The notes under the pieces: model-generated
The model's database searches: none
What the model was told of the DNA's origin: nothing
Seen by the model: only the letters and a program-made list of their open reading frames with translations
DNA from: Acetohalobium arabaticum DSM 5501
GTDB taxonomy: Bacteria; Bacillota; Halanaerobiia; Halobacteroidales; Acetohalobiaceae
DNA length: 64,000 nucleotides
Reading direction: 5' to 3'
NCBI RefSeq assembly: GCF_000144695.1
Contig: NC_014378.1
Coordinates: forward strand, 1,028,781-1,092,780
Translations under genes and position numbers: made by a program
Shown here: piece by piece, positions 23,563 through 44,421 of the stretch
Layout of the letters: each line of letters opens with the position of its first letter
Numbering within the stretch: position 1 is the stretch's first letter

Positions 23563-24540
23563 TTATACAGCAAATTTAACTCTTGAAACTAAGTTGTTTA
23601 AAATATTTTTATGATAAACTGCTGGTGGCATTTTACCAACAGATGAATGTGGTCTCCTGTTGTTGTATCTATCAATAAATTTATCAATTGATTTTCTACA
23701 ATGGGTAATATCAGAATAATGGTTACGATAAATTTCAGATCGTTTAAGTGTTCCATGAAAGCTTTCTATATGAGCATTTTCTTCAGGTGTATTTACTGTA
23801 GTTCTCTCATGAGATATATCAAGCTCATTAAGTTTTCTCTGAAATTCTCTACTTTTAAACTGGGTTCCATTATCAGTTCTTAATGTTAAATTTTCAGTAT
23901 TTCTATTGTCTGTAGCTTGTTCTAAAGCTGCAAGAGCCTCTTTAGTACGGCATCTTAGGCTTTGATAATGACCAACTATTTCTCTAGTATAAACATCAAT
24001 TATATCAAACATATATACCCATTGACCATTTTCATCTATGTACATCTGGACCATATCCATTTCCCATAGCTGGTTAGGTCCAGTTAGTTCATGTTTCTGT
24101 TTTAATTGATAATTTTTAGGCTTTGGTACTATCTGCTCCTGCAGGAGATCTAAGACCTTCATAATGCGGTAAATCCGCTTATGATTAACTTTGAGCTCTT
24201 TTTCATAATTTAAGTAGTTAGTTACCATTCTGTAGCCTAAATGAGGAAATTCATTACAGTATTCTTTTACCAATGAAATTACTTTATGTTCTGGTACTAG
24301 ATTTCCATCTTTATCATAGGCATGATGACCTGTATAAAGTTTATTCTTAGTATTATTTTCCTGATTATCGTTGCTGTTTTGACGGTAATAATAGGTGCTT
24401 CTGGCTATATTAAAAGTTCTACACAGTTCAGAGATGGTATAATCTGTTTTTAAACTATTTATTATTTTAATTTTATCGTCTGTATTTAATCCTGCCAGGG
24501 CTTTTTTTAAGGATTTCCATCTGTACTTTTTGTTGACCAA
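23563..24540 (-). CDS. IS3-family transposase OrfB (DDE integrase)
   Basis: 325 aa: an HTH_21-like N-terminal segment (residues ~30-130, with RSTYYYRQ, HLGYRMV and KRIYRIM) and an rve integrase core with the DDE triad in LWEMDMVQMYIDENGQW, LRTDNGTQFKS, and NTPEENAHIESFHGTLK; ends with YNNRRPHSSVGKMPPAVY. All three acidic residues are present. The frame is +1 (equivalently -2) relative to orfA at the A7 tract 24502-24508, not the -1 usual for this family. A TTG within the overlap gives a possible independent start. Confidence 0.88.
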   Translation of the reverse strand: MVNKKYRWKSLKKALAGLNTDDKIKIINSLKTDYTISELCRTFNIARSTYYYRQNSNDNQENNTKNKLYTGHHAYDKDGNLVPEHKVISLVKEYCNEFPHLGYRMVTNYLNYEKELKVNHKRIYRIMKVLDLLQEQIVPKPKNYQLKQKHELTGPNQLWEMDMVQMYIDENGQWVYMFDIIDVYTREIVGHYQSLRCRTKEALAALEQATDNRNTENLTLRTDNGTQFKSREFQRKLNELDISHERTTVNTPEENAHIESFHGTLKRSEIYRNHYSDITHCRKSIDKFIDRYNNRRPHSSVGKMPPAVYHKNILNNLVSRVKFAV

Positions 24541-24772
24541 TGATCTTTTGCATCTCCTGAATTTGCTTGTCTTTTTCTTTTAATTTAGCTTCTTGTTCGG
24601 TAGGAGATTCACCATTAAGTTTGCTCATTCCTCCATCTAAAAACTCCTTTTTCCAGGCATAGATGGAGTTGCGGCTGACATCATATTCTTCAACTAGATC
24701 AGATATATTTTCATCTTTAAGAACACGAAGTACAATTTCCATTTTAAGTTCAGGATCATAAGATTTAGGCAT
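24473..24772 (-). CDS. IS3-family transposase OrfA (helix-turn-helix)
   Basis: 99 aa. Residues 1-50 carry a transposase HTH (KSYDPELKMEIVLRVLKDE, then LVEEYDVSRNSIYAWKKEF) and residues ~60-90 a leucine-zipper-like helix (AKLKEKDKQIQEMQKIIG). It overlaps orfB by 68 bp. Together they would form the OrfAB transposase only if translational frameshifting occurs in the A7 run. Confidence 0.87.
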   Translation of the reverse strand: MPKSYDPELKMEIVLRVLKDENISDLVEEYDVSRNSIYAWKKEFLDGGMSKLNGESPTEQEAKLKEKDKQIQEMQKIIGQQKVQMEILKKSPGRIKYRR

Positions 24773-24898
24773 TTGCTTTTACCCCCTATAATTATTATAA
24801 AATGTTAAGTTGGTGTTTGTCCAACATTATTAGGGGGCGTAACAAATCATTTAAAAACTTGTAATTAATAAGAATGCAGAAGTTTAGTAATTTTAGTC

Positions 24899-25100
24899 CA
24901 AAACTTTATGAAAAAAGTATAGGCTAGTTCAAAACTATATGAAATTTAATTAAAAACTTTGTGAAAAATAGAGTTGATAAACGCTTAAATTTCGTTTCGC
25001 CAGTACAAAACTATCTGAAAACCTACATTGTTGTAGGTTTTCAGATAGTTTGAGAATATGAGCATGAAGTTTGAGAATGGGTTTCGGAAAGTTTGAGAAT
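24899..25100. repeat. Array of short repeats at the right boundary of the helicase island
   Basis: Copies of CAAAACTwTvTGAA occur at 24899, 24930, 24952 (first base A) and 25006 on the plus strand. They end in the 27-bp inverted repeat 25001-25027. A mirror arm TGTAGGTTTTCAGATAGTTT follows at 25032-25051, making a 20-bp perfect palindrome arm pair. Then AGTTTGAGAAT is repeated three times at 25047, 25068 and 25090 (21-22-bp spacing, two helical turns). Such spaced arrays are typical of transposase-binding ends of larger transposons, or of iteron-like protein-binding sites. No gene is present between 24839 and 25246. Confidence 0.7.
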
Positions 25101-25164
25101 AACCAAAAATATGCATCGTATGTATATTTATTAATGAAAATAATAAATAGCTGTAATAAATAAA

Positions 25165-25202
25165 ACCTGTAGCTTTTTACTAAAAAGCTACAGGTTTTTT
25201 GT
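25165..25202 (+). terminator. Strong stem-loop with T run outside the island
   Basis: AACCTGTAGCTTTTTA pairs with TAAAAAGCTACAGGTT and is followed by TTTTTTG. It ends like the terminator at 18509-18547 (TACAGGTTTTTTG) and may be the pre-insertion terminator of the topoisomerase gene. Confidence 0.75.
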
Positions 25203-25246
25203 TTAAAAGAGAATCATAATAAATATGTAGTTATTATTAGATGGTA

Positions 25247-26377
25247 GGTTGTTGAATAAAAAATATTTCCAATTCAAAAAGGAAAAGTTGCTCACTTTCT
25301 AGTATTACTTCAGGTGACCAAACCTAAATCACTAGAAAGGAGCAACTACTAATGATTATATCACCTGAAGAATTAAAAGAAAATACCTTTTATCAAATTT
25401 GTTCCAAATTAGATGAGATTTATTATACAAAGTTTTCTCCTCAAGAGAATCAAGGTCGTGGTAGACCTAAAAAATATTCAGATTTACAAATGATTAAATG
25501 TCTATTATACAAAGTTAAAAATAAAATTTATTGTTTGCGAGAACTAGAGTCTAAGCTTAAGGAAGATCTTTTAGCTCTGGGAATCATTAAACTTAATGAC
25601 GTTCCAGACCATTCTACTTTTGCTCTTAGATTTAATCAGCTTGAAAAGATGAAATTTAATATACTTTTTCAGTCAGTGATTAAAGAATTAAATCCTGATA
25701 CTAGAATTACATCTATTGATGCAACTGCTTTAAGAAGTTCAAAGAATGATTCAGATGCTAAATTAGGTGTATCAACTAATTTAGGTAGATATAAAGGATA
25801 TAAATTACATTTAATAGCTTCAAATGACTCTATTCCACTATCATTTAAGTTTACCACAGGAAATGTCTATGATAACACTTTTGATTACTGTAAAGAAATT
25901 ATGGAACCGTTAGGTGAACATGATATTTTCATTCTTTTAGGTGATGCAGCCTATGATAGTACTAAATTGTTCAAATTAGCAGATGATCTAGGTTTTAAGT
26001 TATTGACCGATATAAATTATAGAAATGCAGATTCTATTGATGATTTTACTGATAAATGTAGAATAGAAAATGGAATCTATTTTAACTCTCCAATGGGAGA
26101 AAAAATGTACAAAAATAGATTAACGATAGAAAGATCATTTTCAATTTTAAAAGAACGATATAACTTAGAAGCTCCTAGACTATATGGCTTTAAAAGATAT
26201 AGATCTCATGTTATGTGGACACTCTTACTGTATTTAATTGAAAAATTGATCGACAAAGAAAATGGAATAACAGATAATAAATTTTCTTGGAATAGATAAA
26301 TTTTGATAGTAATTAGAAATCAAATTTTAAATCTAATTGCTAATTAAGCAACTTATTAAACTAATTATTCAACAACC
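25247..26377 (+). mobile_element. IS5-like insertion sequence, apparently complete
   Basis: 1131 bp bounded by a perfect inverted repeat GGTTGTTGAATAA / TTATTCAACAACC and flanked by TA on both sides, which fits a TA target duplication. It carries a single intact DDE transposase gene. Confidence 0.88.
25352..26299 (+). CDS. DDE transposase of the IS5-like element
   Basis: 315 aa. N-terminal DNA-binding part with GRGRPKKYSDLQMIKCLLYK, then catalytic segments ITSIDATALRSSK (first Asp), FILLGDAAYDSTKLF (second Asp) and NRLTIERSFSILKERYNLE (Glu in the Y/R-x-E signature). The reading frame is uninterrupted and begins 105 bp inside the left end after AAAGGAGCAA. Family placement in IS4/IS5-type DDE transposases is secure; the exact IS group is not. 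Confidence 0.88.
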   Translation: MIISPEELKENTFYQICSKLDEIYYTKFSPQENQGRGRPKKYSDLQMIKCLLYKVKNKIYCLRELESKLKEDLLALGIIKLNDVPDHSTFALRFNQLEKMKFNILFQSVIKELNPDTRITSIDATALRSSKNDSDAKLGVSTNLGRYKGYKLHLIASNDSIPLSFKFTTGNVYDNTFDYCKEIMEPLGEHDIFILLGDAAYDSTKLFKLADDLGFKLLTDINYRNADSIDDFTDKCRIENGIYFNSPMGEKMYKNRLTIERSFSILKERYNLEAPRLYGFKRYRSHVMWTLLLYLIEKLIDKENGITDNKFSWNR

Positions 26378-27800: not shown

Positions 27801-27835
27801 TGTTCTATTTTAGAACACTGTTTTAAAATAGAATA
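27801..27835 (+). promoter_or_regulatory. Upstream activator sites for the sigma-54 regulator (pair)
   Basis: A perfect palindrome TGTTCTATTTTAGAACA (27801-27817) is followed one helical turn and a half later by a degenerate copy TGTTTTAAAATAGAATA (27819-27835). The pair lies ~140-170 bp upstream of the -24/-12 promoter. The same 17-bp motif occurs three times before the alcohol dehydrogenase gene. Confidence 0.75.
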
Positions 27836-27973: not shown

Positions 27974-27989
27974 TGGTATATTATTTGCA
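27974..27989 (+). promoter_or_regulatory. Sigma-54 (-24/-12) promoter of the AOR operon
   Basis: TGGTATATTATTTGCA: GG and GC dinucleotides separated by exactly 10 bp, close to the TGGCAC-N5-TTGC consensus. A near-identical site lies in front of the alcohol dehydrogenase, and the activator gene sits between them. Confidence 0.85.
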
Positions 27990-28119: not shown

Positions 28120-28599
28120 ATGAATAAAATTTTAATGATCGATCCTGATAAGTGTTCCAGCTGTAAAAATTGTGAATTGATCTGTTCTTTCTATCACGAG
28201 CAGGAATTCAATCCGGCTAAATCTCGAGTACAGGCTTTAACTTGGGAGCGGATTGGTGTTGGTATTCCTATGATGTGTATGCATTGTGAAGATGCAGCCT
28301 GTATGGAAGTCTGTCCGGTGGATGCTATTTATCGTGATGTAGAGACAGGAGCTGTCTTAGTTGATCATGACCGCTGTTTTGGCTGTAAATTATGTGTTAG
28401 TGCTTGTCCTTTTGGCAATGTAACTTATAATTTAGAGACTAAACAGGTGATCAAGTGTGATCTCTGTGGTGGTGAGCCACAGTGTGTAGAATTCTGTCCT
28501 TCAAATGCTATTGAATACAAAGAAGATAGCTCTATTAATAGAAATAAGAAGCTGGCTGTGGCTGAAAAATTCAAAGATCTTTTTGAGGAGGTGGAATAA
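28120..28599 (+). CDS. Four-cluster ferredoxin-like subunit of the AOR operon
   Basis: A 159-aa polyferredoxin of the HycB/CooF/AorB type. Cysteine groups CSSCKNCELIC, CMHCEDAACMEVCP, CFGCKLCVSACP and CDLCGGEPQCVEFCP can bind up to four [4Fe-4S] clusters. It overlaps functionally with the next gene, whose ATG follows its TAA without a gap, so it very likely carries electrons between the aldehyde oxidoreductase and ferredoxin or a quinone-free partner. GGGAGGTGG lies ~25 bp before the ATG, with a small CCCCGT/ACGGG hairpin between, an unusual arrangement that could modulate translation. Confidence 0.85.
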   Translation: MNKILMIDPDKCSSCKNCELICSFYHEQEFNPAKSRVQALTWERIGVGIPMMCMHCEDAACMEVCPVDAIYRDVETGAVLVDHDRCFGCKLCVSACPFGNVTYNLETKQVIKCDLCGGEPQCVEFCPSNAIEYKEDSSINRNKKLAVAEKFKDLFEEVE

Positions 28600-30426
28600 A
28601 TGTATAGCTGGACTGGAAAATTACTCCGAATTAATTTAACTGAACGAACATCTACAGTAGAGTCTTTATCGTGTGAGGATGCAGAAGAATATTTAGGCGG
28701 CCGGGGATTAGGTACTAAGATTATGATGGATGAAGTTGCTCCGGAAGTAGATCCTTTAAGTGCTGATAATAAATTAATCTTTGCTACTGGTGTGTTAACA
28801 GGAACTATTGCTCCTTCTTCGGGAAGATATATGGTAATTACTAAGGGGCCTTTGACTGGTACAATTGCTTGTTCTAATTCCGGCGGTTTCTTTGGAGCGG
28901 AATTAAAGTATGCCGGATATGATGCAGTAATTATTGAAGGAGAAGCCGACCGACCTGTCTATCTCTGGATTTATAATGACCAGGTTGAGATTAGAGATGC
29001 TGAAGATTTCTGGGGCGAGACTACTCATGATACGACAGATATGATTAGAGGAGAGACTAATGAAGAAGCAAAGGTTTCCTGTATTGGACCAGCTGGAGAG
29101 AATTTAGTCAAGATGGCCTGTATTATGAATGAAATGAATCGGGCGGCCGGCAGAACTGGTGTTGGAGCTGTAATGGGTTCTAAGAATCTCAAAGCAGTAG
29201 CTGTTAGAGGAACTAACGGAGTTACAGTTGCCGATAATGAAGGCTTTATGGATACTGTTAGAAAAGCTCGTCAAATGATTGAGGAACATCCCGTCGGGGG
29301 CGAAGGGTTACCTACGTATGGTACTAACATTTTAGTTAATATCCTCAATGAATCCGGCGGATTACCTGTCAATAATTTTAGAGATTCAGGCGTCTTTGAA
29401 ATGGCCGATAAAATCGGTGGGGAAACTTTAGCTGAAGAAAACCTAATTAGAAATAAAGGTTGTTACTCATGTATTATTCGATGTGGCCGGGTAACAAAGG
29501 TTACTGATCCTGAGTATAAAGGCATTGGTGAAGGTCCTGAGTATGAAGCAGCCTGGGGTTATGGTGCTGACTGTGGCGTTGATAATCTTAATATTATTAC
29601 TAAAGCTAATCACTTATGTAATGAATTAGGACTCGATGCTATTAGTATGCCGACCACGATTGCTTGTGCTATGGAGCTTTATGAAGAAGGATATATTTCT
29701 CAGGAAGAGGTAGATTATGATTTGTGCTTTGGTAAGGAAGAGATTCTGGTCGAGTTAACACGCAAAACGGCTTACCGGGAAGGGTTTGGTGATGAGCTGG
29801 CCGAAGGTTCCTATCGCATGGCTGAAAAGTACGGGCATCCGGAACTTTCTATGAGCATTAAAAAGCAAGAGATGCCGGCTTATGATCCGCGAACTTTACA
29901 GGGGATTGGTCTAGAATATGCTACTTCTAATCGCGGCGGCTGTCATGTGCGGGGTTATACTACTTCCCCAGAAATTTTGGGTGTGCCGGAAAAGATTGAT
30001 CCTAATGCTACGGAAGGAAAGGCTAAGTGGTGTGTTACCATGCAAGATTTGACAGCTGCTTTAGATGCATCAGGGTTCTGTTTATTTAGTACTTTCGGTT
30101 TGGATGCCGATATAATGGCTGAATTACTTTCGACAGCGACTGGTCTTGATTTATCAACGGAAGACTTTATTAAGATCGGCGAAAGAATTTGGAATTTAGA
30201 GAAAATATTTAATTTAGCAGCTGGCTTTACTAAAGAAGATGATACTTTACCGCCACGAATATTGGAAGAACCACAGAAAACTGGTCCTTATAAAGGAGAA
30301 GTGAATCGTTTAGATGAGATGTTGCCTGATTACTATGAATTACGGGGCTGGAATGAAGAGAGTATTCCAACGATAGAAAAGATGGAAGAATTAAATCTGG
30401 AGGAATATTATCAAAGTTTAGAGTAA
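28600..30426 (+). CDS. aor: Aldehyde:ferredoxin oxidoreductase (tungsto/molybdopterin enzyme)
   Basis: A 608-aa AOR-family enzyme; aldehyde + water to carboxylic acid, with electrons to ferredoxin (reversible). N-terminal domain with [10 protein letters not shown] and [17 protein letters not shown] contacts the bis-pterin cofactor. The [4Fe-4S] ligands are Cys288, Cys291, Cys295 and Cys494, the same numbers as in the Pyrococcus furiosus enzyme. A DVDxxxxT-like segment, [10 protein letters not shown], sits in the cofactor region. It is transcribed with the preceding Fe-S protein under a sigma-54 promoter, and a MoaD-like gene follows. Mo or W cannot be told from sequence. Confidence 0.92.
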
Positions 30427-30447: not shown

Positions 30448-30484
30448 GGCCAGTGGTAGCAATATCACTGGCCCTACTTTTTTA
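30448..30484 (+). terminator. Terminator-like hairpin after aor
   Basis: GGCCAGTG and CACTGGCC are separated by 10 nt and followed by CTACTTTTTTA. It may reduce read-through into the MoaD-like gene. Confidence 0.7.
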
Positions 30485-30509: not shown

Positions 30510-30788
30510 ATGATTTTGCAGATTAATTTCTTTGCTACATTTCGCAAAGTTACTGGGAATAAGCAGTATGATTATCAGGGTTCGGTAGAAAATATCAAAG
30601 AATTGCTTCTGGAGCTGTCTGATAACTTTGGTACTGAATTTCGAGAGATGGTTTTGGTGGGAGAGGAGTTGAGTCCAGAGGTAATTATTTTAGTTAATGG
30701 GATTAATATTGAACATCTAGCCCAGGAAGAGACAGAATTGAATGACAAGGATAAAGTCAGTATCTTTCCAGTGGTAGCAGGTGGGTAA
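30510..30788 (+). CDS. MoaD/ThiS-like sulfur carrier
   Basis: A 92-aa ubiquitin-like protein ending in the diagnostic Gly-Gly (FPVVAGG). MoaD donates sulfur to make the pterin dithiolene of molybdenum/tungsten cofactors. A longer frame opens at 30438, but GAGGAGG at 30501-30507 points to ATG 30510. AOR operons often carry such a dedicated MoaD, so a role in supplying the AOR cofactor is likely. Confidence 0.88.
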   Translation: MILQINFFATFRKVTGNKQYDYQGSVENIKELLLELSDNFGTEFREMVLVGEELSPEVIILVNGINIEHLAQEETELNDKDKVSIFPVVAGG

Positions 30789-30819: not shown

Positions 30820-30848
30820 TTGATACAACATATGTCATATGGTATAAT
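30820..30848 (+). promoter_or_regulatory. Sigma-70-type promoter of the regulator gene
   Basis: TTGATA, 17-bp spacer, TATAAT. It leaves an unusually long ~225-nt leader that contains the riboswitch candidate. Confidence 0.8.
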
Positions 30849-30935
30849 AGGATAAAATAGGATAAAAAGATAAATTTGACAAAATATATTATTCCTGTTT
30901 ACAGAACAGATTTAACTTTTCAGTTGACTAGTCAA

Positions 30936-31022
30936 TTACCTCCGATCTTACTTATCCCTCTGGGATTTGTAAGACGTTAGGGTATAGAGAGTAATCGCTA
31001 TGCCTGCCATTAGCAAAGGAGC
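30936..31022 (+). ncRNA. Molybdenum/tungsten-cofactor (Moco/Tuco) riboswitch candidate
   Basis: The order of elements matches my memory of the Moco RNA motif: ACCTCCGATC at the 5' side, a stem (TCTTAC/GTAAGA enclosing TCCC-TCT-GGGA), then AGGGTATAGAGAGTAATCGCTATGCCT and finally GCAAAGGAGC closing CTCC/GGAG. A separate hairpin GATTCAA-N5-TTGAATC (31032-31050) follows, ~20 nt before the regulator's ribosome site; with no T run, control of translation is more likely than termination. The gene context (AOR, MoaD) supports the call. A covariance-model search would settle it. Confidence 0.6.
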
Positions 31023-31078
31023 TTATTCTGGATTCAAATTTCTTGAATCTGAAGCGATGGTATAAGGAGGTGGAGCCG

Positions 31079-33034
31079 ATGGAAAGAAATGTAGAGCAGA
31101 TAACTGAAGCATGGCAGACTTATGTTTTGCAAGGCAAAGTAAATGATAAGTTGGATACTAGTATTAAAAGATCATGGCAGCGGTGTAGTGAGTATGAGAT
31201 TAATCCTTTTCAAGAATCTAATGATTGTGTATTACAGGCAAATAATTTACAAGAAAAATTAGAAGAATATGAAGAAATAATTAGAGTAGCTACTCCAATT
31301 ATGAAAGAATTACACCAGTCAATTAAGGGGTCAAATTTTATTGTGGTTTTGACTGATAATCAAGGCCATGTTTTGAAGAGTATCGGTGATGATAGCTTTA
31401 TGCCTAAAGCACAAAAAGTTTATTTAATTGAAGGGGCTAGCTGGCATGAAAAAGTAAAGGGGACTAATGCAATTGGTACCGTAATTGAAGAAGAATCTCC
31501 ATTAAATGTCTATGCTAGTGAGCATTTTTTTCAAGAAAATCATTTTTTGACCTGTTCGGCGGCTCCGATCTTCGATGCTGATGATAATTTTATCGGAGTG
31601 ATTGATATTTCTGGAGATTATCATAGTGCACAGCGACATACTTTAGGAATGGTAGTAGCGGCAGCTAGTGCGATTCAACGGCAGTTATTATTACAGCATC
31701 TCGAGCGGGAATTAATGATTTCCGAAAAGCAGAAAGAATTAATTTTAAATTCGACTGCGGAAGGTTTCTTTACGGTTAATAATGAAGGAGTTATTACTCA
31801 AATTAATCAGAAAGGGAGTCAATTATTAGGTTATGCGCCCCAGGAGTGTATTGGTAAGAAGTTCGAAACTTTCTTTCCTGAATCTACTTTTTCATCATTA
31901 ATGAAGTTAACAACTGATGGAACTGAAAAATCAAAGGAGATGGTCTGGAATCTAAAACAGAAAAGATTACAGGTTACTTCAAAGGTTATTAATGAAGAGG
32001 AAGAAGTAACCGGATTAGTAATTAAAATTAATGATTTTTCTGCTCAGAAGAAGTCAGAAACTAAAAAAGAGCAGAAGACTGATTATTCGTTTAGTGATAT
32101 TATCGGTCAGAGCAGAGAAATAAGGAAGATGATTAGAATAGCCCAGAAAGTAGCTAATAGTGATTCTACAATTTTGTTGACCGGTGAAAGCGGGACCGGT
32201 AAAGAATTATTTGCCCAAGCTATTCATAATTACAGTTCCCGGCAGGATAAAGAATTTGTACCTATTAATTGTGGAGCAATTCCTGAAGATTTAATGGAAA
32301 GTGAATTGTTTGGTTATCAGGATGGAGCATTTACAGGAGCTAAACGTGGTGGCAAACCCGGCAAATTTGAATTAGCTGATGACGGAACTATCTTCTTGGA
32401 TGAGATTGGAGAATTGAATTTTAGTGCTCAGGTTAAATTGCTACGGGTTTTGCAGGAGAGGAAGGTAAGCCGGCTTGGCAGCAATGAATTAATACCTGTG
32501 GATGTGCGGATTATTGCTGCTACTAATAAGAATTTAAAGGAAAGAATCAAAACCGGAGATTTTAGAGAGGACCTGTATTATCGTTTAAATGTAATTAATC
32601 TCGAACTTCCTCCGTTAAGAGAACGCGGTGAAGATATAATTATTCTAGCCGAATATTTTATTGAGAAGCTGGGGATGGCCCTAGGAAAATATAATGTTAA
32701 ATTATCAGAACCGGTTAAGAAGACATTTAAAAATTATAACTGGCCGGGAAATATAAGGGAGTTAAAGAATGGAATAGAAAGCGCTTTAAATTTAATTGAA
32801 GGACTGGTAATTAAAAAAGAACATATTCCAGATTATCTTGGGACTGAAACAGATCTGCAATCGCAGCATTACAGTATTGATGATGAATTATTATCATTAA
32901 AGGAAGCGGAAGCTAGAGCGATAAGAAAAGCGCTTAAATATTTTGAAGGAAATATCAGTCGGGCGGCTAGACATTTAGAGATAGGGCGGAATACTTTATA
33001 TAGAAAGATTGAAAAGTATGGTATAAATATCTGA
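31079..33034 (+). CDS. Sigma-54-dependent activator (AcoR-like: GAF-PAS-AAA+-HTH)
   Basis: About 651 aa. Sensor part: GAF-like domain (~50-195, with GASWHEKVKGTNAIGT typical of AcoR-type regulators), then a PAS domain (~205-310). Central AAA+ domain: Walker A LTGESGTGKELFAQ, the sigma-54-contacting loop GAFTGA, Walker B TIFLDEIGELN, and an arginine-finger region. C-terminal Fis-type HTH (AARHLEIGRNTLYRKIEKY). ATG 31079 with AAGGAGGTGG is preferred to a TTG at 31043 that lies in the leader. It sits between two -24/-12 promoters and likely controls both. The ligand is unknown; an aldehyde or alcohol is plausible. Confidence 0.92.
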   Translation: MERNVEQITEAWQTYVLQGKVNDKLDTSIKRSWQRCSEYEINPFQESNDCVLQANNLQEKLEEYEEIIRVATPIMKELHQSIKGSNFIVVLTDNQGHVLKSIGDDSFMPKAQKVYLIEGASWHEKVKGTNAIGTVIEEESPLNVYASEHFFQENHFLTCSAAPIFDADDNFIGVIDISGDYHSAQRHTLGMVVAAASAIQRQLLLQHLERELMISEKQKELILNSTAEGFFTVNNEGVITQINQKGSQLLGYAPQECIGKKFETFFPESTFSSLMKLTTDGTEKSKEMVWNLKQKRLQVTSKVINEEEEVTGLVIKINDFSAQKKSETKKEQKTDYSFSDIIGQSREIRKMIRIAQKVANSDSTILLTGESGTGKELFAQAIHNYSSRQDKEFVPINCGAIPEDLMESELFGYQDGAFTGAKRGGKPGKFELADDGTIFLDEIGELNFSAQVKLLRVLQERKVSRLGSNELIPVDVRIIAATNKNLKERIKTGDFREDLYYRLNVINLELPPLRERGEDIIILAEYFIEKLGMALGKYNVKLSEPVKKTFKNYNWPGNIRELKNGIESALNLIEGLVIKKEHIPDYLGTETDLQSQHYSIDDELLSLKEAEARAIRKALKYFEGNISRAARHLEIGRNTLYRKIEKYGINI

Positions 33035-33051: not shown

Positions 33052-33121
33052 CGTTAGAAAATAGAACATCAAAGGTAGTTAATAGGTGTTTTAAGTTTGA
33101 ACAATGTTGCAAAATAGAACG
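33052..33121 (+). promoter_or_regulatory. Upstream activator sites for the sigma-54 regulator (triplet)
   Basis: Three 17-bp sites related to TGTTCTATTTTAGAACA: CGTTAGAAAATAGAACA (33052-33068), TGTTTTAAGTTTGAACA (33087-33103) and TGTTGCAAAATAGAACG (33105-33121). The last two are spaced 18 bp, as in the AOR promoter, and end ~150 bp before the -24 element. Confidence 0.75.
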
Positions 33122-33268: not shown

Positions 33269-33284
33269 TGGTATGCTTGTTGCA
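33269..33284 (+). promoter_or_regulatory. Sigma-54 (-24/-12) promoter of the alcohol dehydrogenase
   Basis: TGGTATGCTTGTTGCA with GG and GC 10 bp apart. The -24 half TGGTAT and -12 half TTGCAT are identical to those of the AOR promoter. Confidence 0.87.
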
Positions 33285-33334: not shown

Positions 33335-34492
33335 ATGAAACAAGTTTATGGTTACTTTATGTCGCCGGTTAATCTAATGGGAGCAGGAGCAGTAGAAGAA
33401 ATAGGTGATCAACTTAAGAAATTGAAGGGGACAAAGGCTTTAATTGTAACGGATGAAGATTTGGTGGAGTTAGGAATTGTAGAAGAGGTAACGGAGCATA
33501 TCAAAAAAGTAGGAATAGACTTTGTTGTCTTTGATGGAGTGCAGCCTAATCCTACAGTTAGCAATGTAGAAGCGGGATTGGAACTGCTAGAAGAAGAGAA
33601 TTGTGATATAGTTGTTTCAGTGGGAGGAGGTAGCCCCCATGATTGTGCTAAAGGTATTGCTATAGTTGCTACTAATGGAGGGGAAATTACTGATTATGAA
33701 GGCTTAGACCAGTCAACGGAACCGATGATGCCTTTAATATCTGTTAATACTACTGCTGGAACTGCTAGTGAAATGACCCGGTTTGCTGTTATTACTGATG
33801 AAGAGAGACAAGTTAAGATGGCAATTGCTGATTGGAGAGTAACTCCTAATGTAGCGATTAATGATCCATTATTAATGATGAAAAAACCTCCGGCATTAAC
33901 AGCAGCAACAGGAATGGATGCTCTAACTCATGCAGTTGAGGCTTATGTTTCTACTGATGCTACTCCTGTTACTGATTCGGCAGCGATTAAAGCTATTGAG
34001 TTAGTTGCAGAAAATTTAAGGGAAGCTGTAGCAAATGGAGATAATTTTGAAGCTAGAGATAACATGGCTTACGCTGAATTTTTAGCCGGTATGGCTTTTA
34101 ATAATGCTTCTCTTGGTTTTGTTCATGCTATGGCCCATCAGTTAGGGGGCTTTTATGATTTGCCCCACGGGGTCTGTAATGCGATCTTATTGCCTCATGT
34201 AGAAGGATTTAATTTAATTGCTAATCCGGGACGTTTAGCTGATATTGCTGAAACAATGGGAGAAAATATTGAAGAGCTATCGACTAGGGCAGCAGCGGAT
34301 AAGGCTTTAGAAGCGATTACTACTTTATCTAAAGATATAGGAATTCCACAGAGATTGAGCGATTTAGAAGGAGTCAAGAAAGAAGACTTCGATACTTTAG
34401 CTGAAAATGCGCTCAAGGATGTTTGTAGTTCGACTAATCCAAGAAAGGCAACTAAGGAAGAAATTATAGGTATTTTTGAGTCTGCTTATTAA
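33335..34492 (+). CDS. Iron-containing alcohol dehydrogenase
   Basis: A 385-aa group III (Fe-ADH) enzyme that interconverts primary alcohols and aldehydes with NAD(P). NAD-binding part: SVGGGSPHDCAKGIAI and TTAGTASEMTRF. Metal ligands lie in the conserved AATGMDALTHAVEAYVS and LGFVHAMAHQLGGFYDLPHGVCNA segments (His residues). The gene is monocistronic, preceded by GGGAGGG, and shares its sigma-54 circuit with AOR. Together they could interconvert alcohol, aldehyde and acid. Confidence 0.92.
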   Translation: MKQVYGYFMSPVNLMGAGAVEEIGDQLKKLKGTKALIVTDEDLVELGIVEEVTEHIKKVGIDFVVFDGVQPNPTVSNVEAGLELLEEENCDIVVSVGGGSPHDCAKGIAIVATNGGEITDYEGLDQSTEPMMPLISVNTTAGTASEMTRFAVITDEERQVKMAIADWRVTPNVAINDPLLMMKKPPALTAATGMDALTHAVEAYVSTDATPVTDSAAIKAIELVAENLREAVANGDNFEARDNMAYAEFLAGMAFNNASLGFVHAMAHQLGGFYDLPHGVCNAILLPHVEGFNLIANPGRLADIAETMGENIEELSTRAAADKALEAITTLSKDIGIPQRLSDLEGVKKEDFDTLAENALKDVCSSTNPRKATKEEIIGIFESAY

Positions 34493-43079: not shown

Positions 43080-43119
43080 AAAATTTTTGAATTTAAATAG
43101 GGAAAAAGGGGGGAGAATA

Positions 43120-44421
43120 ATGTCCTTACGTATAGTACATTATATAAATCAGTTTTTTGGTCAAATTGGTGGAGAAGAAAAAGCAGATATTCCACCAAAG
43201 ACTGAAGAGGGGCCGGTAGGACCTGGTAATGGGATTAATGCAGGACTAAAGGAGATCGGTGAAATTGTTAAAACAATTATCTGTGGAGATGACTATTTTA
43301 ATGAACATACTGAAGATGCTAAAGTAGAAATCAAGAAAGTATTAGAGGATGTAGAACCGGATTTAGTCCTTGCCGGTCCTGCTTTTAATGCTGGTCGCTA
43401 TGGTATGGCCTGTGGTGGTGTGGCAGAGTTGGCCTGTGATGAGCTAGATATTCCAGTGATTTCTGCTATGTATCCTGAGAATCCAGGTTATGAAATGTAT
43501 AAAAATTACGCTTATGTGATTAAGACTTCAGATTCTGCTGCTGGTATGAGAGAAGCAATTCCAAATCTAATAAAATTAATTAAAAGTTATAATAAGAAAG
43601 ATGGAAAACTAGGGCGACCAGAAGAAGAAGGATATATGACGCGTAATTTAAGAAAAAATATATTTGCAGAGAAAAGAGGTTCTACTAGAGCAGTAGAGAT
43701 GTTAGTTAAGAAAATTAATGGGGAAGAGTTTGAAACTGAATATCCAATGCCTGACTTCGATCGGGTAGATCCTGTCGATCCAATAGAAGACTTAGCTAAT
43801 ACTAAAGTAGCTTTAGTTACTTCTGGTGGAATTGTTCCAGAAGGCAATCCAGATAGAATAGAGTCTTCAAGTGCTTCTAAGTATGGGGAATATAAGATTA
43901 CGGAAACTGGTGAAACTGCTCATGGCGGTTATGATCCTGTATATGCCAATGAAGATCCTAATCGAGTTCTACCGGTTGATGTAATGCGTGATTTAGAGAA
44001 TGAGGGAGCGATTGGGGAGTTACATGAATTTTATTACAGTACTGTAGGTAATGGAACTGCCGTAGCTAATGCTAAAGCCTATGCTGAAGAGATTGCTGAA
44101 AAGTTAATTAATGATGGAGTTCAGGCAGTTATCTTAACTTCTACTTGAGGAACCTGTACTCGTTGCGGTGCAACGATGGTAAAAGAGATTGAAAAAGCAG
44201 GCCTTCCAGTCATACATGTGGCAACAGTAGTTCCGATTTCCAAAACTGTTGGAGCAAATAGAATAGTTCCTGCAGCTGCTATTCCTCATCCTCTAGGAGA
44301 TCCTGAGAAGAGTCTAGAAGAAGAAAAACAGATTCGTAGAGAAATAGTAGATAAGTGCCTTCAAGCTTTACAGACCGAGATTGATGATCAGACTGTTTTT
44401 AGTTATGTTAAAGGGTGCTAG
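43120..44421 (+). CDS. grdB: Selenoprotein component B of glycine/sarcosine/betaine reductase (GrdB/F/H type)
   Basis: A 433-aa selenoprotein. The in-frame TGA at 44146-44148 is read as selenocysteine 343 in the motif U-G-T-C-T-R-C-G, the UxxCxxC active site of component B; conventional gene calling breaks it at this codon. N-terminus: INQFFGQIGGEEKAD and GPVGPGNGI are family signatures. The distal part ends in VVPISKTVGANRIVPAAAIPHP, also typical. With the GrdE-type subunit it reductively cleaves the C-N bond and hands a carboxymethyl-selenoether to protein A. A frame extends upstream to 43087, but AAAAAGGGGGGAG points to ATG 43120. No grdA, grdC or grdD lies in the window. Confidence 0.93.
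44146..44182 (+). promoter_or_regulatory. Selenocysteine insertion (bSECIS) hairpin
   Basis: Directly after the UGA, CGTTGC-GGT-GCAACG (44161-44175) forms a perfect stem with a short G-containing loop 12 nt downstream, the right place for a bacterial SECIS element bound by SelB. Confidence 0.75.

Follow-up and report, generated by a model that had tools for sequence, protein, structure and literature searches.

The question raised by this locus is whether a single RNA could make a whole regulon answer to the supply of a metal cofactor. An earlier note had placed a candidate molybdenum/tungsten-cofactor (Moco/Tuco) riboswitch ahead of a sigma-54 activator gene rather than a biosynthesis gene, and had proposed that cofactor supply gates the activator and, through it, an aldehyde:ferredoxin oxidoreductase (AOR) and an alcohol dehydrogenase (ADH). 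The window, that is, the whole stretch of 64,000 nucleotides that was analyzed, covers 1028781-1092780 of the single-contig 2,469,596-bp genome. All genes of interest lie on its + strand, where a ferredoxin-like subunit of AOR (28120..28599; 4Fe-4S families), AOR itself (28600..30426; AFOR_C 3e-152, AFOR_N 1.4e-86) and a MoaD/ThiS family protein (30510..30788; moaD_arch above cut-off) are followed by the activator (31079..33034, 651 aa) and an iron-containing ADH (33335..34492; ADH_Fe_C 1.9e-74, Fe-ADH). The activator is AorR/AdhR-like, with GAF, PAS, AAA+ sigma-54 interaction and Fis-type HTH domains (PF00158 9e-73, GAF, PAS, HTH_8), while an NCBIfam search of the protein returned no equivalog above cut-off. 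Between AOR and the moaD-like gene, a strong terminator-like hairpin with a U run (30448-30473) would reduce read-through into the latter. Transposase-like genes, named from sequence alone, lie at 23563-26299, upstream of the AOR operon.

The reach of any RNA-based control depends on what the activator controls. Sigma-54 promoters stand directly before the Fd-AOR-moaD operon (TGGTATATTATTTGCA, 27974..27989, +) and before ADH (TGGTATGCTTGTTGCA, 33269..33284, +). The window holds three sigma-54-like sites, a number that is itself at chance level, and the informative part is the position of the sites directly before these two units. Upstream of the AOR promoter are two activator-site palindromes, TGTTCTATTTTAGAACA and TGTTTTAAAATAGAATA (27801..27835, +), and three more precede the ADH promoter (33052..33121, +). 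These TGT-N11-ACA sites, upstream of -24/-12 promoters, agree with the TGT-N10-12-ACA sites of AorR/AdhR-type regulons. When one mismatch is allowed, the pattern TGTTNNANNNTNGAACA has 8 matches in the window against 1.7 expected, a count reached in 0 of 100 shuffles; 7 of the 8 cluster ahead of the AOR and ADH promoters, at five places of which two match on both strands. Among relatives, full copies of the palindrome TGTTCTATTTTAGAACA (12 of 12 informative positions) precede ADH in Fuchsiella and Natroniella acetigena and AOR in N. sulfidigena, and a weaker 10/12 copy precedes ADH in Frackibacter. Because the palindromes are shared with relatives and accompany sigma-54 promoters in a genome in which rpoN is present, putative control of both AOR and ADH by the activator is well supported, with binding of the activator at the palindromes as the step that we infer. 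We considered whether the activator might regulate itself from a site in its own leader and rejected this: a scan of that leader for the palindrome found no site, and a CTGTTTACAGAACAG repeat near 30895 is wrongly spaced. Cmscan of the window places no Moco RNA before its AOR operon. The domains of the downstream frame confirm that the candidate riboswitch precedes an activator gene, and the anatomy supports the two-layer logic of the earlier note well, through the sigma-54 promoters at AOR and ADH, the shared palindrome and rpoN.

The identity of the RNA is clear from computation. Comparison of the window with Rfam by cmscan matched 30928-31037 (+) to the Moco/Tuco riboswitch aptamer RF01055 at 42.6 bits, above the gathering score of 36, with E = 8.5e-7 for the 64-kb window, and a search of the complete genome with RF01055 recovered the same interval. 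The match spans the whole length of the model, with near-empty P3 columns in the alignment of its 110 nt. Across the leader, other Rfam families gave chance-level matches only, and in the window as a whole just two matches exceed curated cut-offs. The second is a SECIS_4 element (44149-44186, 65.3 bits) in a selenoprotein gene at 43087-44421, which encodes the B subunit of a glycine/sarcosine/betaine reductase and has an in-frame TGA. P1, P2, P4 and P5 and the conserved core (CUCCGA, AGGG, GCCU, AAAGGAG) are all present, and the P3 stem is absent, as in the P3-less form of the family. P1 is a 4-bp helix between CTCC (30940-30943) and GGAG (31018..31021, +), with a mismatch immediately outside. 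Pairing is conserved across 22 Moco RNAs, in which 17 of 25 pairs show compensatory changes, and a model built from these 22, the window copy itself among them, scores the window RNA at 63.2 bits. The minimum free energy of the leader is below that of shuffled sequences (z -2.3). The context also accords with the family, which occupies 5′ leaders of genes tied to the Mo/W cofactor, since the putative targets of the activator include AOR. The only other Moco RNA in the genome, at 56.2 bits, lies ahead of a small ORF and moeA.

Around the aptamer, the leader has the anatomy that had been described for it. A sigma-70 promoter, TTGATA-17-TATAAT with a TG before the -10, occupies 30820..30848 (+) and matches 11 of 12 consensus positions, its assignment being a consensus match only. 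The motifs follow in the order predicted: CCTCCGA (30939-30945), AATCGCTATGCC (30993-31004) and GCAAAGGAG (31013-31021). Between the aptamer and the ribosome site is a linker hairpin, GATTCAA/TTGAATC (31031..31049, +), then the Shine-Dalgarno (SD) sequence AAGGAGGTGG (31064..31073, +) and the ATG start codon at 31079. Promoter, motif order and hairpin were therefore all found as the earlier note had them, and the two checks that it named, a covariance score and conservation of the paired regions, both came out in its favor. Its interval of 30820-31078 does contain the aptamer and takes in the promoter and expression platform as well, so that as an extent for the riboswitch aptamer it is too wide.

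A score of 42.6 bits is low for RF01055, most relatives scoring 55-90 bits. We attribute this to membership of a divergent subclass and not to decay, since the P5 pairing survives a two-sided change and the P4 loop remains a GNRA loop. This loop is GUAA (30991..30994, +), where 100 of 112 aligned Moco RNAs have GAAA, and the usual 11-nt receptor in P2 is absent. On comparison with published members, we read this as a known sort of variation and not as exclusion from RF01055, because GCAA members without the receptor have been reported and a co-change of loop and receptor described for them (PMC2408646). In P5 (31006..31014, +), GC at 31006-31007 pairs with GC at 31013-31014 in place of the usual CC:GG, a C-G to G-C flip read from the alignments. 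The nearest matches to the window RNA, Moco RNAs ahead of Fd-AOR operons in genomes G013 and G049, share both the flip and the missing receptor. A subclass model made from these three RNAs was run against 59 genomes from the class and 299 from the phylum and yielded five more RNAs in other families, all with GC P5. The traits of this small GC-P5 subclass are the P5 flip, a usually non-GAAA loop and a missing usual receptor. Of its seven other members, three precede AOR and four the ferredoxin subunit of AOR; only the window copy stands ahead of an activator. In G049 the RNA begins directly after the Fd-AOR sigma-54 promoter, and an activator gene lies just upstream. Read most simply, an RNA that elsewhere precedes the enzyme gene here precedes the gene of what is probably the enzyme's activator. 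In another genome of the same genus, a broken activator-like gene with frame interruptions lies just upstream of a Moco RNA-led AOR (G001, L033 6200-6975).

We consider it probable that this P3-less Moco/Tuco-class riboswitch controls translation of the AorR-type activator as an ON switch, and so gates AOR and ADH. In the proposed mechanism, without cofactor, ACCTCC (30938..30943, +), which comprises the 5′ strand of P1 plus AC, would pair with GGAGGT of the SD and block ribosome entry. Once cofactor is bound, most likely in its tungsten form, CTCC and GGAG would be locked together as the 4-bp P1, leaving the SD free. Activator bound at TGTTCTA-N3-TAGAACA sites would then switch on Fd-AOR-moaD and Fe-ADH from their sigma-54 promoters, so that the AOR/ADH pathway would be made only when cofactor can be supplied. 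The tungsten cofactor is the most likely ligand because P3 is absent, a form tied to the tungsten cofactor by Regulski et al. (PMC2408646), and its identity is to that extent inferred. The aptamer might instead sense the molybdenum cofactor, or both metals alike, and the two-layer logic would be unchanged. The ligand preference of P3-less RNAs was inferred solely from gene context, and deletion of P3 in E. coli abolished regulation with no change in specificity (PMC2408646); the genome also has genes of the molybdopterin-oxidoreductase family. However, P3-less RNAs track tungsten use (PMC2408646), and the GC-P5 subclass is otherwise found only with genes of AOR, a tungsten-enzyme family. We regard molybdenum sensing as doubtful.

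The case for an ON switch comes from the computed competition between the two pairings. In the unconstrained ensemble, ACCTCC pairs with the SD at P = 0.74 and P1 forms at 0.00, while forcing P1 raises the openness of the SD from 0.25 to 0.52, only a doubling. The gap between the free and the P1-forced fold is about 9 kcal/mol in the window RNA, large for ligand binding alone, in energies that are thermodynamic and leave ligand and order of transcription outside the model; folding during transcription would favor P1 first. C30939 has no partner in P1, where it lies opposite C31022, yet pairs with the SD. Such a C, 5′ of CUCC, unpaired in P1 and complementary to the SD, is found in 15 of 18 RNAs ahead of AOR genes, from five families, versus 2 of 86 Moco RNAs ahead of other genes (1 of 33 for moe/mod genes and 1 of 53 for the rest). 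Fisher p is 2e-13, a value inflated by relatedness; the signature in AOR leaders stems partly from one genus. P1 has 4 bp in 15 of these AOR leaders and 4 to 10 bp elsewhere. Four GC-P5 members have a terminator whose 5′ arm contains or overlaps the 3′ strand of P1, so that P1 would exclude or weaken the terminator, with the weakest case at L242; these are predicted to follow ON logic by another route. Both routes are predicted to give AOR when cofactor is present, and the window activator RNA is predicted to be of the same sign.

To ask how widely activators are joined to such RNAs, we crossed activator homologues with RF01055 matches in about 350 Bacillota genomes, with related genomes counted together. 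Five loci have an RNA ending 42-205 nt before activator homology, namely the window, Fuchsiella, G127, G321 and G091; as they come from E-value-limited homologue searches and strict RNA filters, further loci could be missed. A scan of 26 more distant activator homologues found no Moco RNA. A universal link between Moco RNA and activator is rejected, since no Moco RNA was detectable in Frackibacter and two Natroniella activator leaders; because these leaders lack the RNA, the arrangement varies within the lineage. The Fuchsiella activator RNA (76 bits) resembles the aor RNA of its own genome and has the C signature of the window RNA. Between it and the activator lies a 26-codon frame with a strong SD (L034 4093-4172), whose stop is two bases before the activator ATG. 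The frame looks like a copied aor leader, complete with SD and start codon, and may couple translation of the two frames.

The remaining three loci, in the distant genomes G127, G321 and G091, are built otherwise. A terminator comes after the aptamer, and an antiterminator that uses the 3′ strand of P1 forms in the pre-terminator transcript at P = 1.00, 1.00 and 0.77, respectively; these activator leaders are predicted to be OFF with cofactor. In G091 (L215 2652-17152), the activator has modABC/moeA-like genes on one side and, on the other, a moe/moa cluster led by a second Moco RNA; no sigma-54 promoter was seen immediately ahead of modA. The three leaders, together with the E. coli moaA riboswitch, which is OFF (PMC2408646), are what speaks for the window RNA working in the same way, with cofactor shutting the activator off. 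Against this, no intrinsic terminator was found following the window aptamer when one was searched for as expression platform, the SD lies outside P1, the anti-SD pairing excludes P1 instead of needing it, and the platform signature is that of the AOR leaders. An OFF switch at the window is accordingly improbable in our judgment. Very improbable is a relic, left from a rearranged AOR leader and no longer controlling the activator: it would suit a family score below that of relatives, an association present in one close relative (Fuchsiella) and missing in three, and the 42-nt linker with hairpin between P1 and SD, but not a P5 pairing kept through a double change, a P4 loop that is still GNRA, intact core bases, a retained SD-complementary unpaired C and an independent sigma-70 promoter upstream.

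In both G127 and G321, a PF00171 aldehyde dehydrogenase, or ALDH (L213 10430-12224; L214 5121-6908), lies divergently to the activator; its best NCBIfam match is the acetaldehyde dehydrogenase ExaC, below cut-off. Each ALDH is also led by a Moco RNA of its own, which directly follows the sigma-54 promoter of the gene (TGGCATGGATATTGCT; TGGCACGATTATTGCT). The ALDH leader of G127 has an antiterminator design like that of the activator leader, and in the folding analysis none could be assigned to the ALDH leader of G321. This suggests a choice of isozyme, in which a metal-free ALDH and its activator are made without the tungsten cofactor. More tentative, and in our view somewhat short of an even chance, is the broader idea that Moco/Tuco RNAs have repeatedly been joined to sigma-54 activators with opposite signs, the sign being ON where the activator serves AOR (window genome, Fuchsiella) and OFF where it serves the tungsten-free ALDH (G127, G321). 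Sensing of a single cofactor by RNA would then choose between metal-dependent and metal-free isozymes via a transcription factor.

Much of the anatomy is on record: the RNA family, its P3-less form and the tie to tungsten are known (PMC2408646), and AorR and AdhR have been predicted or shown to control aor and adh, respectively, through sigma-54 (PMC6615313, PMC7017808). Other riboswitch classes do precede regulator genes. The principle is therefore not new, and what would be new is the use of the Moco class on an activator. A literature search that covered few subscription journals, and the 2008 paper apart from its supplementary alignments, found no Moco-class riboswitch before an activator, and within the same scope neither the ON signature of AOR leaders nor the GC-P5 subclass nor the arrangement around ALDH was described. 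A Moco RNA on the activator would let one RNA gate a whole sigma-54 regulon, the cofactor-free partner ADH included. The C signature and the GC-P5 subclass offer concrete marks by which putative cofactor-ON switches might be recognized. The subclass also makes a good entry to the unsettled question of whether an RNA can tell the tungsten from the molybdenum cofactor. Control of AOR and ADH is also relevant to acid-to-alcohol conversion by acetogens.

Among known systems, the protein layer has a counterpart in AorR, for which control of aor-moaD via sigma-54 has been predicted in Clostridiales (Nie et al., 2019, PMC6615313). The likeness lies in a sigma-54 activator assigned to aor-moaD and in TGT-N10-12-ACA sites upstream of a -24/-12 promoter. 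The text of that paper is without riboswitch, molybdenum or tungsten, and here ADH has the same sites as well. AdhR of Clostridium beijerinckii, a GAF-PAS-AAA-HTH activator of alcohol dehydrogenase genes via sigma-54, resembles the window activator in domain order, sigma-54 and several upstream sites, and differs in that no riboswitch or AOR is mentioned for its regulon (PMC7017808). At the RNA layer, the moeA-operon Moco RNA of the same genome (L001, 56.2 bits) belongs to the same family, RF01055; unlike the window RNA, it has the usual GAAA loop, leads a cofactor-synthesis gene and has no anti-SD signature. A further comparison is with the RF01055 RNAs of Regulski et al. (2008, PMC2408646), whose targets are biosynthesis, transport and enzyme genes. 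The window RNA matches them in its score over the cut-off, in P1, P2, P4, P5 and core, and in the P3-less form. In contrast to them, it leads a sigma-54 activator, is predicted to be ON rather than OFF, and carries a flipped P5 and a GUAA loop in place of the usual loop and receptor.
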